A stretch of DNA of 64,000 nucleotides, taken from assembly GCA_016215605.1 (NCBI GenBank), contig JACRJB010000019.1, forward strand, positions 1 through 64,000. The letters run 5' to 3'. Of this stretch, positions 300 to 6,675 are shown piece after piece. The position numbers and the translations under genes are program-made. The notes below the pieces were generated by a model. The model was given only the letters and a program-made list of their open reading frames with translations. It was not told where the DNA came from and made no database searches. Position 1 is the first letter of the stretch; each line of letters begins with the position of its first letter. The stretch comes from Rhodopseudomonas palustris. GTDB lineage: Bacteria; Pseudomonadota; Alphaproteobacteria; Rhizobiales; Xanthobacteraceae.

Positions 300-836
300 A
301 TGCGTCGACGCACCCGCGATTACGGTCCCCGTCCCTCTGTCCCCGAGCCGCGGCCGGTGCTGCTGGCGGCGGTGCGGGATTTCGTGGGGGCTGCGGCGGC
401 GATCGACGGGGTGCGGCGGATCGCGCTGATCGGCTCGCTCGTCACCGACAAGCCGGTACCGAAGGATGCGGATTTGCTGGTCACGATCGCGGCCGAGATG
501 GATCTCGACGCATTGGCGCGAGCTTCCCGGCAGATGCAGGGCAAGGCGCAGAAGATCAATCTCGGCGCCGAGGCTTTCCTCGCCGATCAGAACGGCCGCT
601 ATCTCGGCCGGATCTGCCACTGGCGGGAGTGCCGTGCGCGCGCCCTCTGCCGCGCGCAGCACTGCGGCGCGCGCAATCATCTGAACGACGACCTGCATGA
701 CGTGACGTTGCCCGCCAAGCTGATCGCCGAGCCTCCGCTCGAACTGTGGCCGACCATCGTGCGCCGCGTTCAGCCGGCAGCGGACGTCGAAGCGATCCTA
801 CTGGCGCAAGCGCCGAGTCGCGAAAATGGTCCGTAA
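300..836 (+). CDS. Nucleotidyltransferase-like protein
   Basis: 178 aa. Residues about 40-62 read IALIGSL...PKDADLLV, which resembles the GS-x(n)-D-x-D core of minimal nucleotidyltransferases (Pol beta fold), here as G-S followed by K-D-A-D. A Cys/His-rich stretch (CHWRECRARALCRAQHC, about 107-123) follows and could bind a metal. The start is the ATG at 300, which lacks a good ribosome binding site, so the true start is uncertain. It stands alone between a poorly annotated edge and a convergent gene. The substrate cannot be inferred. Confidence 0.6.
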   Translation: MRRRTRDYGPRPSVPEPRPVLLAAVRDFVGAAAAIDGVRRIALIGSLVTDKPVPKDADLLVTIAAEMDLDALARASRQMQGKAQKINLGAEAFLADQNGRYLGRICHWRECRARALCRAQHCGARNHLNDDLHDVTLPAKLIAEPPLELWPTIVRRVQPAADVEAILLAQAPSRENGP

Positions 837-969
837 GATGGGTTGAGCGCAGAGATCCATCAGAACGACTGCATGTCCGCAAAATGCCATTGCGGAGCGA
901 CGCGAACTTCCACCGTCCTTGCCCGCCCGCGCGGTCGCTTCGCTCCACGCGGACCGCGACGCGATGCCC

Positions 970-1434
970 TTATGGCTGGCCGAAGCGTTGCTGCGCCCGA
1001 CGGATCACTTCCGCGATCATCGGCCCGCTGTTCTTCAGCTCGTCGGCAATCTCGGTGGCGCGGTCCGGCGTGATCAGGGCGCCCTCCTCTCCGTCGAGGA
1101 TACAGCCGCCGGTGGCGTCGGCATAGGCGGCGGCCGCCAGATAGCCGGCCTCGCTGGCCGCCAGATCGCCTCCCCAGCGGAACGCCAGCACATAGCGCCA
1201 GCGATGATCGAACACGACATCCTCCGTTTCGTCCATCAGCTCGCCGGCGTCGAAATGATCGCATTCGAACGCCGTCGGGCGATCGCGCAGCACCGCCGGC
1301 AAGGCGCCGCTCAGCTCCGCGAACGGCCGGGTGACGGACAGACGCAGCGGCGCGCCGCGGCGGTCGAGCGCCTGCTGCCAGTCCTCGATCGTGGTCAGTT
1401 GCCGGTCCGAGAAGACATAAATTTCTATCGACAT
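970..1434 (-). CDS. Hypothetical protein, 154 aa
   Basis: The frame stays open upstream, but the ATG at 1434 (MSIEIYVFSD...) is preferred because the extra upstream residues are Arg/Pro-rich and not protein-like. The product is soluble and acidic, with no signal peptide or membrane segment. It contains an aromatic patch (HRWRYVLAFRWGGD) in the middle and a C-terminal helix ending in RRAQQRFGQP. I do not recognise a named family. Its 5' end faces the DUF2314 gene at 1631 across about 200 bp that carry the LexA-type box, so the two are divergent. Confidence 0.6.
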   Translation of the reverse strand: MSIEIYVFSDRQLTTIEDWQQALDRRGAPLRLSVTRPFAELSGALPAVLRDRPTAFECDHFDAGELMDETEDVVFDHRWRYVLAFRWGGDLAASEAGYLAAAAYADATGGCILDGEEGALITPDRATEIADELKNSGPMIAEVIRRAQQRFGQP

Positions 1435-1557
1435 GTCGGTTGCTCCTGATCCCCATCGGCGGCGGCGCGCGACCGGCGCTCCGGCGATGCGCGGCCTGCG
1501 ACCGACCTCCGTCGGAGACACCCGCGTAACGGTAAATTATTAAACTACTCGCCTGTC

Positions 1558-1586
1558 TTGACATTCGGAACATATCATGAACAAAT
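1558..1586 (+). promoter_or_regulatory. Promoter with LexA-type SOS box (copy A)
   Basis: GAAC at 1568-1571 and GAAC at 1579-1582 are separated by exactly 7 bases, which is the alphaproteobacterial LexA operator (GAAC-N7-GAAC; Rhodobacter and rhizobial LexA). It lies inside a promoter-like stretch: TTGACA at 1558-1563 and a weak -10 around 1581. The ATG at 1577 falls inside the operator, which supports the downstream start at 1631. The same arrangement, almost base for base, recurs at 3994-4022. Confidence 0.75.
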
Positions 1587-1630
1587 GGCTTGGCAAGTTT
1601 TCAAGCGAAGTTTTTTTTGCGGAGGCGGCA

Positions 1631-2125
1631 ATGTTGCTGTGGGGCGTGATTTCACTGGTTGCGTTGTTCATCGCGCCGGTCCGGGCGCAGTCGCTGATCG
1701 ACAAGTCCGTGCGCGACGAGACCGCACGCGTCAGGAACGACGATCCGGCGATGGCGGCGGCGATCGCCAAGGCGCGCGCCGGGCTCGACGATTTTCTCGC
1801 CCGCGCCGATCATCCGGCCGGCGATCAGCGCGAGTTCTCGATCAAGGTGAAAGTGCCGCTCGGCGCCAACAGCGAGTTTCTCTGGCTGCGCCCGTTCGTC
1901 CGCGACGGCGACGGCTTCATCGGCCGCGTCGTCAACACGCCGCGCTACATCGCCAATCTGAACTATGGCGACCGCCTCGCCTTCGAACGCAACGACATCG
2001 CCGACTGGTCGTACAAACAGGACGACCGGGTGATCGGCAATTTCACCGCCTGCGTGCTGATCGCGCGCGAGCCGGCGGCGCAGCGCGCCGCGTTCCGCTC
2101 CCGATACGGCATCGATTGCGAGTGA
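1631..2125 (+). CDS. Secreted DUF2314 protein, copy A (SOS-box gene)
   Basis: 164 aa from the ATG at 1631, which follows a GGAGG at 1621-1625; a longer start at 1577 would sit in the LexA box. Residues 1-20 form a signal peptide ending in A-Q, so the product is exported. The body (about 60-155) matches the DUF2314 pattern: FLWLRPF, GFIGRVVNTP and DIADWSY motifs. A paralogue lies at 4072 with the same operator. The function of DUF2314 proteins is unknown; induction after DNA damage is inferred from the operator only. An independent unit: about 110 bp of spacer precedes the next small frame. Confidence 0.8.
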   Translation: MLLWGVISLVALFIAPVRAQSLIDKSVRDETARVRNDDPAMAAAIAKARAGLDDFLARADHPAGDQREFSIKVKVPLGANSEFLWLRPFVRDGDGFIGRVVNTPRYIANLNYGDRLAFERNDIADWSYKQDDRVIGNFTACVLIAREPAAQRAAFRSRYGIDCE

Positions 2126-2277
2126 CCGCCCGGAGGAAGCGGGCCGGCTGCGGCTGCCGGCGGGCCGCCGTGCCCGCCGGCCGCAAGCGCTTGACGATTT
2201 GTTAACCACGCCCCCAGCGGCACCGAACTGATCGCTTGCATTTTAATTATCGCCTCGACAGCAACAAGGAGCAGACG

Positions 2278-2469
2278 ATGAACGAAGCGCTACTGATCAT
2301 GCCCAACATGCGCGGCGGCTGCGCGACGGTTGGTAGCAAGGTGCACACGTTGTTCCGCGTCAACGGCCGGCGGCCGGGCCTGGCGCAGCTGGAGACGGAC
2401 GCAGAAGCGGCGGCGGATCGCGACGACCAGAGCGCGGGCCATGATGAAGCGAACAGGTCGAGCCGGTAA
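2278..2469 (+). CDS. Small hypothetical protein, 63 aa
   Basis: The ATG at 2278 has a very good ribosome binding site (AAGGAG at 2265-2270, 7 bases away), the main reason to list it. The product begins MNEALLIMPNMRGGC and becomes Asp/Ala/Arg-rich, with no signal peptide, membrane segment or recognised family. The C-terminal half has a composition typical of chance frames in GC-rich DNA, so it may be a truncated remnant. It lies between DUF2314 copy A and a palindromic repeat pair. Confidence 0.35.
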   Translation: MNEALLIMPNMRGGCATVGSKVHTLFRVNGRRPGLAQLETDAEAAADRDDQSAGHDEANRSSR

Positions 2470-2487
2470 CGATCAGCTGGTCGTGGC

Positions 2488-2567
2488 GTAGCCCGGGTGA
2501 GCGAAGCGACACCCGGGTTGTTGCTTTGAGGCAGACCCCGCGTATCGCTACGCTCATGCGGGCTACA
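2488..2567. repeat. Inverted pair of palindromic intergenic repeats
   Basis: A unit starting gtagcccgggtgagcgaagc at 2488-2518 is followed by a diverged inverted copy at about 2536-2567, which reads gtagcccgcatgagcg on the other strand. Such paired palindromes (REP/BIME-like) are common between genes in the Bradyrhizobium/Rhodopseudomonas group. The pair lies just past the end of the monooxygenase gene and may act in transcript termination. Confidence 0.7.
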
Positions 2568-2598
2568 GGCCGACAGGCCAGCTACGCGCGTCGACGAA

Positions 2599-3891
2599 CT
2601 ACACTCCCGCCCGCTCCTTCACCCGCGCGCCCTTCGCGATCGTCGGCGGTGCGGCGTTCAACGTCTCGATCGCGAAGCCGGCGGCGGCCTTGTAGCCGGC
2701 CATGAAGGCGGCGCGCTCGGCCGGCGGGATGACGTCGTCGATATTGTCGAAGGTGCCGCCGCAGCGCTCGTCCACCAGATTGAGCAGACCGAACGGGCCG
2801 GCGCCGCGGTTGCGCAGGATCAGCTGCGAGATCGGGCCGCACATCTTGGCGTCGAACGCCGCCAGCGCCGCTTGGTTAGCACCGTGCGCCACCATCGCGG
2901 CGCCGAGTTCGCGCGCGTCGATGATCGCCTGGCTGCCGCCGTTGGAGCCGGTCGGATACATCGCATGCGCGGCGTCGCCGAGCAGCAGCACCGGGCCGTC
3001 GCGCCAGGTCGGCACCGGATCGCGGTCGATCATCGGATTCTCGAACGCGCTGGTGGATTCGCGGATCAGGGCCGGCACGTCGAGCCAGTCCCACACCCAG
3101 CCGTCGAAATGATGCGCGAAGTCGGCGGTGGGCACCTGGCGGAACCAGCCCTGCTGCTTCCAGCCTTCGCTGTTGTCGAGGGTCACTTCGGCGATCCAGT
3201 TGATCATCGACAGCCCGGTCGCGGGATCGGGATGCGAGATCGGATAGATCACCACGCGATGCTTGTGCGTGCCGAGGCCGATGAACGACGCGCCGGTGCG
3301 GGTCGGCTTGCCCCAGGTGGTGCCGCGCCACATCACCGCGCCGCCCCAATGGATCGGCGGCTGATCGGGATGCATCTGCGCGCGGATCGCCGAGTGGATG
3401 CCGTCGGCGCCGATCAGGAGCGCGCCGTGATCCTCCGTGGTGGTGCCGTCGGCGTGCTCGACCCGGACGCTGACGCTGTCGCCGGTGTTGCGATAGGACG
3501 TGACGCGGCAGCCGAGTCGCACCGCATCGGCGCCGAGCCGCTTCACCACTTCGTCGTGCAGCAGCACTTGGAATTGGCCGCGATGCACCGCGTATTGCGG
3601 CCAGGCGTAGCCGGCCAACCTGCCGCGCGGCTCGGCGTAAATGTCGTTGCCGTTGAGGCCGACCAGCGCCCATTCCTGCGCCGGCAGGCCGACGCGATCG
3701 AGTTCGGCCTCGCCGATGCCGAGATCGCCGAGCTCGCGCACCGCGTTGGGCTGCAGATTGATGCCGACGCCGAGCGGCCGCATCTCGCGCGCGGCCTCGT
3801 AGACCACGCAGGGCACGCCGATCTGATGCAGCGTCAGCGCCGTCGCCAGCCCGCCGATGCCGCCGCCGGCAATGATGACCTTGTCGCTCAT
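2599..3891 (-). CDS. PhzS-type FAD-dependent monooxygenase
   Basis: 430 aa; start ATG at 3891 (MSDKVIIAGGGIGGLATA). The N-terminal GGGIGG dinucleotide fold binds FAD. RPLGVGINLQPNAV, YAVHRG, the GADGIHSAIR motif (about 160) and the second FAD motif GDAAHAMYPTGSNG (about 300) are all present, as in group A flavoprotein hydroxylases. The GVGINLQP and IHRG-like stretches closely resemble PhzS, which hydroxylates a phenazine carboxylate, but no phenazine genes are here, so the substrate is unknown. It sits between two DUF2314 paralogues and is divergent from the second, whose LexA-type box lies about 110 bp upstream of this start. Confidence 0.8.
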   Translation of the reverse strand: MSDKVIIAGGGIGGLATALTLHQIGVPCVVYEAAREMRPLGVGINLQPNAVRELGDLGIGEAELDRVGLPAQEWALVGLNGNDIYAEPRGRLAGYAWPQYAVHRGQFQVLLHDEVVKRLGADAVRLGCRVTSYRNTGDSVSVRVEHADGTTTEDHGALLIGADGIHSAIRAQMHPDQPPIHWGGAVMWRGTTWGKPTRTGASFIGLGTHKHRVVIYPISHPDPATGLSMINWIAEVTLDNSEGWKQQGWFRQVPTADFAHHFDGWVWDWLDVPALIRESTSAFENPMIDRDPVPTWRDGPVLLLGDAAHAMYPTGSNGGSQAIIDARELGAAMVAHGANQAALAAFDAKMCGPISQLILRNRGAGPFGLLNLVDERCGGTFDNIDDVIPPAERAAFMAGYKAAAGFAIETLNAAPPTIAKGARVKERAGV

Positions 3892-3993
3892 GAACGCCCC
3901 ACCCTCGACCTGCTTGTGATTGCGATGTGCTGTAGCCAGCCACGACCGGCGAGGCAACCGGCCCGGCACCAAGATGTCCGGGGAATGACCGAC

Positions 3994-4022
3994 TTGACGC
4001 TCGGAACATATCAAGAACAGAA
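3994..4022 (+). promoter_or_regulatory. Promoter with LexA-type SOS box (copy B)
   Basis: GAAC at 4004-4007 and 4015-4018 with a 7-base spacer, preceded by TTGACG at 3994-3999. The core (CGGAACATATCA then GAACA) is nearly identical to copy A at 1558-1586, although the surrounding DNA is not. It lies 50 bp upstream of the DUF2314 copy B start. The box is between divergent genes, so it could also affect the monooxygenase, but its position suits the forward promoter. Confidence 0.78.
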
Positions 4023-4071
4023 TTGCAGCCGTTACTTGATGCATTGTTTTTGCTTGTTTCAGGAGGGCGCC

Positions 4072-4602
4072 ATGACGCGCCGGACCTTTGCGCTGGCAGC
4101 CGTCGGGCTGCTGCTCTCGGCGCTTCCGCCTGCCGGGGCGGGCAATTTGCTCGACCGGGTCGAGCGCGACGAACTTCGCTACGTGCCCGACGACGATCCG
4201 GCGATGCAGGCGGCGATCGCCAAGGCCCGCGCCACCCTGCCCGATTTCCTCGCCAAGGCCGCGCGCCCGCGGATCAACCAGCGCACCTTCGCGCTGAAGG
4301 TGGAGGTCAGGCTCGCCGACGGCCGCAGCGAATTCCTGTGGGTCACGCGCTTCGCCAACCAGGGCGACGATTTCATCGGCGTGGTCGACAACGAGCCGCG
4401 GCTGGTGCCGACCCTGAAACGCGGCGGCTATCTGGTGTTCAAGCGCGACGAGATCGCCGACTGGCTGTATCTCGAAGGCGACCGGATGGTCGGCAATTTC
4501 ACGCTGTGCGCGATGACGGCCGCGGTGCCGGAGGATCGCCGCATCGCCCGCGAGCAATTCGGCCTCGCTTGCGACGACGCTCCACCCGCGGCACCGCGAT
4601 GA
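4072..4602 (+). CDS. Secreted DUF2314 protein, copy B (SOS-box gene)
   Basis: 176 aa; ATG at 4072 behind AGGAGG at 4061-4066. Residues 1-23 form a signal peptide that starts MTRRTF and ends in AGA, so it could use the Sec or a weak Tat route. The DUF2314 core is conserved with copy A: DDPAMQAAIAKAR, SEFLWVTRF, DFIGVVDNEP, DEIADWLY and the closing GNFTLCAM. It overlaps the next gene by four bases (ATGA), so the two are translated together. Role unknown; damage induction is inferred from the operator. Confidence 0.8.
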   Translation: MTRRTFALAAVGLLLSALPPAGAGNLLDRVERDELRYVPDDDPAMQAAIAKARATLPDFLAKAARPRINQRTFALKVEVRLADGRSEFLWVTRFANQGDDFIGVVDNEPRLVPTLKRGGYLVFKRDEIADWLYLEGDRMVGNFTLCAMTAAVPEDRRIAREQFGLACDDAPPAAPR

Positions 4603-5039
4603 GCAACGCCCGCGCCGCGCTGATCGTCGCGCCGGACGGCGACCATGTCACCGGCCATTGCGCCTGCTGTGGCAGAGTCAGCCGCTGTGTGTGGGGCACC
4701 GTGTCGACCGACGATGCAGGCCTCGCCATGTACTACGTGCACTGGAGCGTCGGCCACGTCGCCGAGGTCGGCGCCGATCTCGACCTGATCATCGGCCGCT
4801 GGGGCGACGGCACCGGCGCGGCGGATCGTTGCGTGGTGCGACTACATCACGTCGTGAGCCCGGACGGGGTGATGGTGCAGGACGCGGCGATGCGCGACGG
4901 GTTCGATCGTCTGGCGGCGCGGGCGCTGGCGCGCGCCGAGGTGATCGGCACCCCGCTCGCCGCGGAAGTGTTCGCCGTCTACGACGCGATCCTGCTGCAG
5001 GATGCGCGGCTCGGCGAATTGCATGGCGCCGCGGCGTGA
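4599..5039 (+). CDS. Hypothetical Cys-rich N-terminus protein, coupled to DUF2314
   Basis: 146 aa, starting in an ATGA overlap with the DUF2314 copy B gene, so it shares that transcript and presumably its LexA-type control. The N-terminus carries four cysteines (GHCACCGRVSRC, residues about 19-30), a possible metal or redox site. The middle contains MYYVHWSVGHVAEVGADLDLIIGRWGDG. No signal peptide, so it is predicted cytoplasmic while its partner is exported. I do not recognise the family. Copy A has no such partner. Confidence 0.7.
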   Translation: MSNARAALIVAPDGDHVTGHCACCGRVSRCVWGTVSTDDAGLAMYYVHWSVGHVAEVGADLDLIIGRWGDGTGAADRCVVRLHHVVSPDGVMVQDAAMRDGFDRLAARALARAEVIGTPLAAEVFAVYDAILLQDARLGELHGAAA

Positions 5040-5104
5040 CGATGCCGTGCGCCGCGCCGCGCACGACAGCTCGGGCATGCGAGGCGAGTTCCGCAGCGGT
5101 CCGC

Positions 5105-5533
5105 CTAGCGCAGGCCGATCGCGAGGCCGCTGAGGTCGAGGTCGGCGATCAGGCCGACCTGCCGGCCGGAGAGTTCGAGCACCGCGCCCTTCTCGTTGCG
5201 CAGCACGATGGCGCGGGCGCCGACGCCGATCGCGGCACCCGCGCCGGCGGCGCCGTAGATGCCGGCGACATCGCTGGCGCTGCGGATGTTGCTGACGCGG
5301 CCGACCAGGTCGGCCTTCGAGCCGCCGAACACCAGGCCGTAGGACAGGCCGCCGATCGACAGCGGATAGCGCCGGCCGTTGAAGGTCAGCGTGCCGGAGC
5401 CGCCCGAGCCGCCGATGATCCAGCCGCCCTTGAGGATGGTGAGCGCGATCCGGCCCTCGGCCGCGCGCGCGGCGGTGGTGCCGGCGATCGCCGCGAGCAT
5501 CAGGGCGAACGCAACTCCGAACAATCGACGCAT
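5105..5533 (-). CDS. Secreted glycine-rich hypothetical protein
   Basis: 142 aa; ATG at 5533 preceded by GGAGA. Residues 1-24 are a signal peptide ending in ARA. The mature part alternates short beta-like strands with glycine stretches (GGWIIGGSGGSGTLTFNGRRY, then LSYGLVFGGSKADLVGRV) and ends in a hydrophobic strand, LDLSGLAIGLR. This suggests a small periplasmic beta-rich protein, loosely like the EipA/DUF1134 type, but I cannot assign a family. Convergent with the Cys-rich gene upstream. Confidence 0.65.
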   Translation of the reverse strand: MRRLFGVAFALMLAAIAGTTAARAAEGRIALTILKGGWIIGGSGGSGTLTFNGRRYPLSIGGLSYGLVFGGSKADLVGRVSNIRSASDVAGIYGAAGAGAAIGVGARAIVLRNEKGAVLELSGRQVGLIADLDLSGLAIGLR

Positions 5534-6600: not shown

Positions 6601-6675
6601 GGCTGTTTGAAAATTGGCTGTTCGAAAATTGGCTGTTCGAAAATTGGCTGTTCGAAAATTGGCTGTTTGATATTC
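6601..6675. repeat. 15-bp tandem repeat, four full copies
   Basis: The unit ggctgttcgaaaatt is repeated at 6601-6615, 6616-6630, 6631-6645 and 6646-6660 with one T/C difference in the first, then a decayed fifth copy to 6675. It is AT-rich compared with its surroundings and holds the palindrome TTCGAA. The period of 15 keeps both strands open as frames (FENWL forward, FSNSQ reverse), but neither frame looks like a real protein. It lies in a gene-free gap. Confidence 0.9.

Follow-up and report, generated by a model that had tools for sequence, protein, structure and literature searches.

Gene organization of the locus

The first 64,000 nucleotides of contig JACRJB010000019.1 of Rhodopseudomonas palustris (assembly GCA_016215605.1), referred to here as the window, contain two genes for DUF2314 proteins, which we term A and B, on either side of a gene for an FAD-dependent monooxygenase. 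Upstream of each DUF2314 gene stands a TTGAC hexamer followed by a direct repeat of GAAC, and the end of B overlaps the start of a gene for a 146-residue protein with a cysteine cluster, which we term CxCCG. The features of the locus and the evidence for each are as follows.

1558..1563, + strand: TTGACA, presumed -35 hexamer of A, as read from the sequence
1568..1582, + strand: LexA-type box of A, GAACATATCATGAAC; exact in 5/5 Rhodopseudomonas A loci and in 2/2 loci of a second genus
1631..2125, + strand: DUF2314 paralogue A (164 aa, counted from the probable start codon); PF10077, E 1.1e-16; dN/dS 0.21-0.43 in 10 pairs
2599..3891, - strand: FAD-dependent monooxygenase, a syntenic landmark between A and B that is probably outside the unit; PF01494; orthologue in this position in 12/15 other genomes of the genus
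3994..3999, + strand: TTGACG, presumed -35 hexamer of the B-CxCCG promoter; identical in 13/13 aligned intergenic regions
4004..4018, + strand: LexA-type box of B, GAACATATCAAGAAC; exact in 11/13 orthologous intergenic regions, one mismatch in 2/13
4018..4023, + strand: CAGAAT, weak -10-like hexamer overlapping box B by one base; consensus match only
4072..4602, + strand: DUF2314 gene B, 176 aa; PF10077, E 1.8e-17; dN/dS 0.17-0.43 in 10 pairs
4072..4140, + strand: putative signal peptide of B, MTRRTFALAAVGLLLSALPPAGA; found by sequence inspection, with an N-terminal hydrophobic segment in 5/5 orthologues by eye
4507..4509, + strand: Cys146 codon of B, with Cys167 as a possible partner; nearly invariant in an alignment of 13 sequences
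4570..4572, + strand: codon of Cys167 of B; nearly invariant in the same alignment
4599..4602, + strand: ATGA overlap of the B stop and the CxCCG start; identical in 5/5 genomes
4599..5039, + strand: CxCCG-family gene, 146 aa; no Pfam match over cut-off; dN/dS 0.24-0.65 in 44/45 pairs and 0.82 in one
4659..4673, + strand: CACCG motif (C21, C23, C24, G25); the four residues invariant in 12/12 aligned members

Both boxes are GAAC-N7-GAAC direct repeats and each starts ten bases after the start of its TTGAC hexamer. A reading of the sequence alone had proposed that the same operator geometry and a nearly identical promoter core precede the two DUF2314 paralogues, and the boxes at 1568-1582 and 4004-4018, each with TTGAC upstream, bear this out. 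For B, a consensus promoter scan pairs TTGACG with CAGAAT, 18 apart, at a weak score of 9/12, with the -10 element touching the last base of the box; for A the scan found no promoter on the + strand. The ATG at 1577, which opens the longest ORF of A, falls within the LexA box, making an annotation of A from 1577 doubtful. The likely start is at 1631, where the start codon and the purine-rich stretch before it are conserved in all five genomes that carry A. A terminator-like hairpin in the A leader (1588-1606) was considered and dropped, being poor in the relatives by eye. Between A and the monooxygenase there is also a 63-aa ORF (window 2278-2466) without a Pfam match, which was matched beside the monooxygenase in 12/12 regions compared, and also in genome G557 of the second genus. 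Further along, at window 6605-6670, lies an apparently intergenic direct repeat of a attggctgttcgaaa-like unit in about four copies by eye.

The boxes, chance, and the SOS genes of the genome

Judged by its sequence, the GAAC-N7-GAAC repeat at A and B is of the known alphaproteobacterial LexA site type, which a passage in PMC3323433 gives as GTTC-N7-GTTC for Alphaproteobacteria and one in PMC12700426 gives in the same form for Caulobacter. The exact pattern occurs seven times in the window, against a mean of 1.84 in shuffled sequence, and none of 100 shuffles reached seven. With the hexamer included (TTGAC-N5-GAAC-N7-GAAC) there are three sites in the 5.8 Mb genome, namely those of A and B and one before radA, and none for the reversed pattern used as a control. 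A looser form, TTG-N4-9-GAAC-N7-GAACA, gives eight genomic sites (reversed control, one): those of A and B, one each before recA, ssb, radA, sidA-like/dnaE, and an ORF of the type that we call MADITYY, and an eighth without an assigned gene.

The boxes were also scored with a matrix for which 15 boxes of other SOS genes (recA, lexA, ssb, radA, sidA-like/dnaE, and MADITYY type), with every gene identified, served as the training set. Most of these training boxes had come from finds with the GAAC-N7-GAAC pattern, so the matrix is informative mainly on the inner and flanking bases and on ranking. Box A (22.8) and box B (22.1) rank first and second in the window, where the third site scores 15.0, and both fall within the range of the training boxes (20.6-29.7). 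When all positions of 100 Markov-model windows were scored, the best site per window averaged 14.3 with a maximum of 20.2, and none of the 100 reached the score of B. The same genome encodes LexA (PF01726 match) with a box upstream of its own gene, recA has two boxes, and ssb and radA are boxed as well. Taken on these comparisons, LexA control of both predicted units is very likely.

Two small ORFs were seen behind LexA-type boxes elsewhere. In the R. palustris genome analyzed here (L034, C2:221829), an ORF for a 32-aa membrane peptide, presumably SidA-like after Caulobacter SidA, lies between a LexA-type box and dnaE. The same order of box, short SidA-like peptide ORF, and dnaE, with dnaE recognized by motif or reading, was found at L072, L074, L076, L077, L081, L082, L083, L086, L089, and L092, making 11 loci with L034. 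In four Rhodopseudomonas genomes (L032, L073, L080, and L093) a small ORF beginning MAD(I/V/L)TYYVALPF stands behind a LexA-type box.

Conservation within Rhodopseudomonas

Five of the 16 Rhodopseudomonas genomes carry both A and B, and the other 11 carry neither; one was never seen without the other. The CxCCG gene is more frequent (11/16), as it is found in the five genomes with A and B and in six more without DUF2314, and in these six the same operator immediately precedes the lone CxCCG gene. Co-occurrence of the two-gene unit had been suggested as a check by the sequence-only reading, and the same ATGA-linked pair is present in all five Rhodopseudomonas genomes with B; the operator is likewise conserved in relatives, the box being exact at 5/5 A loci, 4/5 B loci, and 6/6 lone CxCCG loci. 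Neither outcome that was to refute that reading, a pair that never recurs or an unconserved operator, is borne out. The one B box that departs, in G012, has a single mismatch and scores 16.6, a level that random windows attain. Since the CxCCG gene retains the operator where DUF2314 is gone, the B-CxCCG pair is not obligatory, and the CxCCG protein is probably useful by itself.

The monooxygenase provides a frame for comparing the intergenic region, as its orthologue is at this place in 13/16 genomes of the genus; G005, G009, and G014 hold only distant relatives. Among these 13 genomes the box is exact in 11 and has one mismatch in two (G012 and G008), and the count includes two genomes that lack both B and CxCCG, G013 with an exact box and G008 with a one-mismatch box. 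Mean column identity over the 13 genomes is 1.00 for TTGACG, 0.98 for each GAAC half-site, and 0.87 for N7, compared with 0.54 for the spacer and 0.61 for the downstream leader. The hexamer and half-sites thus stand clear of the spacer and leader, and less sharply of the upstream intergenic part (0.82). The six genomes with a lone CxCCG gene form one clade with 100% bootstrap in an unrooted monooxygenase tree, so this state probably arose in a single event. Loss of B is most simply what that event was, although a gain plus losses would be compatible with the unrooted tree. A separate observation is that G011 has a third A-type box and leader (L054:6506-6520), which lack both the TTGAC hexamer and a following DUF2314 gene and may be what is left of another duplicate.

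Distribution outside the genus and origin of the two boxes

A pattern search of 296 genomes of the family for the ATANC-type box gave 17 sites in 13 genomes, 14 of which are promoters of this locus in Rhodopseudomonas. One of the remaining three precedes an exported-looking DUF2314 gene that adjoins the same monooxygenase in another genus. Of 18 genomes of this second genus searched with the profile, two contain DUF2314; in each the gene is preceded by TTGAC and an exact box, and the stretch examined shows neither B nor CxCCG. The N7 bases of these two boxes (AAACAAA and ATAACGC) differ from those of Rhodopseudomonas while the half-sites are intact. Two further observations concern these relatives: in G557 an ORF matching TY-Chap3 (PF22552; L106:1511-2089) lies divergently beside the LexA-type box of the second-genus DUF2314 gene, and in G640 (L101), from another genus of the family, TTGAC and an exact LexA-type box stand just upstream of a DUF1963 gene.

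Family-wide there are 37 DUF2314 places in 31 of the 296 genomes, and of the 27 outside Rhodopseudomonas, 25 have an inspectable locus. The two second-genus loci are the only boxed ones; the other 23 lack one within 450 bases upstream of the profile match, a stretch that may miss the promoter where the match is partial. Among these 23 is the DUF2314 gene of G471, which adjoins the same monooxygenase and has no recognizable signal peptide. In about 400 bases before the approximate starts of six distant DUF2314 genes (L009-L014) there were two one-mismatch sites and no exact box. With 23/25 outside loci unboxed, SOS control would characterize most of the monooxygenase-linked lineage, not DUF2314 as a whole.

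In a tree of DUF2314 proteins, A and the G471 protein join the second genus at 75% support, apart from B. Because A groups with the boxed second-genus genes and apart from B, the boxes of A and B may descend from one ancestral box and have been kept separately later. The sequence-only reading had taken the two boxes as independently maintained and chance as unlikely; the boxes are indeed conserved and chance is unlikely, but an independent origin is not required by this tree.

The encoded proteins

The PF10077 matches of the two DUF2314 genes score 64.2 and 61.6 bits, against a curated cut-off of 22. The orthologues of both have hydrophobic N-termini with small-residue sites, as judged by eye, which suggests that A and B are exported, and the two near-invariant cysteines would suit a periplasmic disulfide. 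A twin-arginine signal in B (TRRTFAL) was set aside, as the RR is absent in G007. In G001 the signal region of B (L006:1417-1560) looks enlarged by tandem repeats (LKVILLKVILLKVI...). Our structure model of B, built from four sequences, has a mean pLDDT of 75 and consists of N-terminal helices followed by mainly beta structure, and that of CxCCG has a mean pLDDT of 63. Foldseek gave no match at E <0.001 with either model, and the sub-threshold matches of B were led by Mtr4 chains and included chromo, Tudor, and KOW domains; with models of middling quality and no significant match, these fold names are hints only. Sequence searches of the PDB gave nothing meaningful for DUF2314 (best E 0.025) and no match for CxCCG.

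The 146-aa ORF carries GHCACCGRVSRC, and C21, C23, C24, G25, S28, and R29 are invariant in the 12 aligned members. The sequence-only reading had described an ATGA overlap between the DUF2314 paralogue and a 146-aa protein with a CACC cluster, and the overlap is confirmed in all five genomes with B. B and CxCCG would be expressed from a single transcript, and inspection of the two sequences suggests a pair consisting of an exported B and a cytoplasmic CxCCG protein. We define the CxCCG (R388 orfA-like) family, which is one of this analysis and not a curated one, by the HCxCCGxxSR motif together with alignment over most of the length, both of which the 146-aa protein shows. A Pfam scan of six members gave nothing over cut-off. 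Relatives are sparse, with 5 of 385 alphaproteobacterial genomes (the R. palustris genome counted) one more from another search, and two plasmid records, a Phyllobacterium plasmid and R388 with its orfA cassette. In the Phyllobacterium plasmid (L143:4001-4376) the match to the homologue is split into two segments that lie in different frames. Around five relatives outside Rhodopseudomonas, about 3.4 kb of sequence holds no exact box, and by eye no DUF2314 gene lies beside them.

All three genes appear to be under purifying selection, as none of the 65 pairs for A, B, and CxCCG together reaches a dN/dS of 1; the near-neutral value of 0.82 belongs to the CxCCG pair of G000 and G012. A toxin-antitoxin pair does not fit, as CxCCG stands without DUF2314 in six genomes of the genus and elsewhere. 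A defense system was set aside, as nothing in NCBIfam scored over cut-off and PADLOC gave no more than a weak match to PtuA (E 0.041). A phage origin was also set aside, as A and B have no PHROG match at E 0.1 and CxCCG has one at E 0.045. No phage record has CxCCG and no viral contig has DUF2314, while seven plasmid records have DUF2314 matches, none covering 80% of B.

A hypothetical mechanism and function

Based on the comparisons above, which strongly indicate the identity of the operator, its conservation, the linkage of the genes, their overlap, and purifying selection, we propose that the stretch is a LexA-repressed, SOS-inducible transcription unit in which an exported DUF2314 protein, B, is coupled to a CxCCG protein, and we give this reading a probability of about three in four. 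RecA-promoted cleavage of LexA is the established mechanism of SOS induction. In the undamaged cell LexA would bind the GAAC-N7-GAAC operator directly downstream of the TTGACG hexamer and repress B together with the cytoplasmic CxCCG-family gene, to which B would be translationally coupled by the ATGA overlap, and it would likewise repress a second unit, 2.4 kb away, that encodes the paralogue A. DNA damage would lead to RecA-stimulated cleavage of LexA and the release of both units. We hypothesize that A and B then enter the periplasm, fold there while forming a single disulfide bond, and target either the envelope or its attacker, and that the CxCCG protein acts in the cytoplasm, partly independently of DUF2314.

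What the three proteins do is a matter on which our proposals are far less firm, and we give close to an even chance to some function other than the two discussed here. The first of these, which we slightly and speculatively favor but which is still unlikely, is that A and B are orphan immunity proteins of the Imm34 type, raised by the SOS response upon attack by a nuclease-bearing competitor, with CxCCG as a further protective factor that is useful in its own right. PMC3482391 lists DUF2314 as Imm34, found in heterogeneous polyimmunity loci, in a row that names no toxin partner; the distribution of A, B, and CxCCG across the genus is patchy, and one member of the CxCCG family, orfA of R388, is an integron cassette. 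However, no toxin or other Imm family was found in the eight neighboring ORFs scanned (window 300-5533). Nuclease toxins are normally neutralized in the cytoplasm, and an exported location is thus a misfit for immunity against them. In its most complete form, as a new SOS-inducible protection module of A, B, and CxCCG in which damage is taken as a sign of attack and induces Imm34-type proteins in the periplasm and a cysteine-rich factor in the cytoplasm, the proposal is doubtful; if true, it would mean that a damage-triggered layer of immunity is wired into the housekeeping LexA regulon.

The second proposal, to which we assign about one chance in several, is a brake on the envelope or on division timed by the SOS response, comparable in role to SidA, where the exported DUF2314 proteins would disturb or sense the envelope and slow division during repair, with CxCCG as a moderator. 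It draws on the report that overproduction of E. coli YegJ leaks the envelope, induces Cpx and Psp genes, and halts growth, but the same text classes YegJ as cytoplasmic (PMC13232886). The joint occurrence of A and B in 5/5 genomes and the conserved coupling of B to a cytoplasmic partner are in accordance with such a brake, while the genome already has a SidA-like peptide gene behind a LexA box of its own, and the persistence of CxCCG without DUF2314 in six genomes means that CxCCG is not merely an antidote.

Returning to the proposed LexA control itself, it is improbable that the repeat is recognized by another regulator or is just a promoter motif. The inner bases at this locus in Rhodopseudomonas (ATATC or near) are more constant than, and unlike, the AAAAT type common at other LexA boxes, which could hint at a different protein. 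Nevertheless, the half-sites, their spacing, and the nearby upstream TTGAC equal those at the radA, dnaE/sidA, and MADITYY genes of the same genomes, one of the two recA boxes of the R. palustris genome has ATATTGC as its inner bases, and in the second genus the N7 has changed with the half-sites unchanged. Chance, in the form of two unrelated matches and a fortuitous gene overlap, might be entertained from the expectation of about 1.8 exact GAAC-N7-GAAC sites per 64 kb but is opposed by the first and second ranks under a matrix from other genes and by the absence of any random window at the score of B, and is refuted by conservation across 13 genomes and in a second genus.

Comparison with known systems

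In its regulatory part the locus resembles the LexA/SOS regulon of Alphaproteobacteria, with the same direct-repeat operator, TTGAC just upstream at several sites, and boxed recA, lexA, ssb, radA, and sidA-like/dnaE in the same genome. It differs in its cargo, which here is two exported-looking DUF2314 proteins and a CxCCG protein. Among the matches listed in the open-licence literature, judged by title, opening of the abstract, and passages, none ties DUF2314 or the CxCCG family to LexA or SOS. SidA-type SOS division inhibitors are also LexA-controlled with a product acting outside the cytoplasm, which for A and B would be the case if they are exported; the SidA-like gene of this genome is, however, a separate gene for a 32-aa peptide upstream of dnaE, whereas A and B are of 164-176 aa with a soluble domain behind a signal-like segment.

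A and B share with YegJ of E. coli and PA2504 of P. aeruginosa the DUF2314/Imm34 domain (PF10077 over the gathering cut-off for both), a widespread domain that is known, in the literature consulted, only from overexpression, interaction, and mutant-transcriptome data. Unlike YegJ, which its authors list as cytoplasmic (PMC13232886), the proteins here look exported; they also have two conserved cysteines, and their genes lie behind LexA boxes. PA2504, a DUF2314-DUF2185 fusion, is described in PMC8466066 as evenly spread in the cell, in contrast to the exported appearance of A and B; the same source predicts a Tudor-like fold for its DUF2314 domain, with which the sub-threshold barrels (chromo, Tudor, and KOW) of B agree. 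The closest named counterpart of the 146-aa protein is orfA of the class 1 integron In3 of R388, with 32.6% identity over 93% of the protein and HCxCCGxxSR kept, although orfA is an integron cassette between dfrB2 and qacEdelta1; a passage of PMC3518468 states it to be of unknown function. The PLSDB gene annotation of orfA in R388 (L142:5001-5423) begins downstream of the CxCC motif.

The operator motif is thus known, and what is new is a predicted LexA-controlled unit with unusual, exported-looking cargo. In this phototroph genus, which is well studied, the predicted SOS regulon would grow by three genes, DUF2314 would gain a testable expression condition, and the CxCCG family a regulatory context. 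A switch that is kept even where one gene is lost points to an unrecognized part of the DNA-damage response, and the natural series of genomes, with a box and both genes, one gene, or none, or with a decayed box, is well suited to the question of why LexA control is retained.
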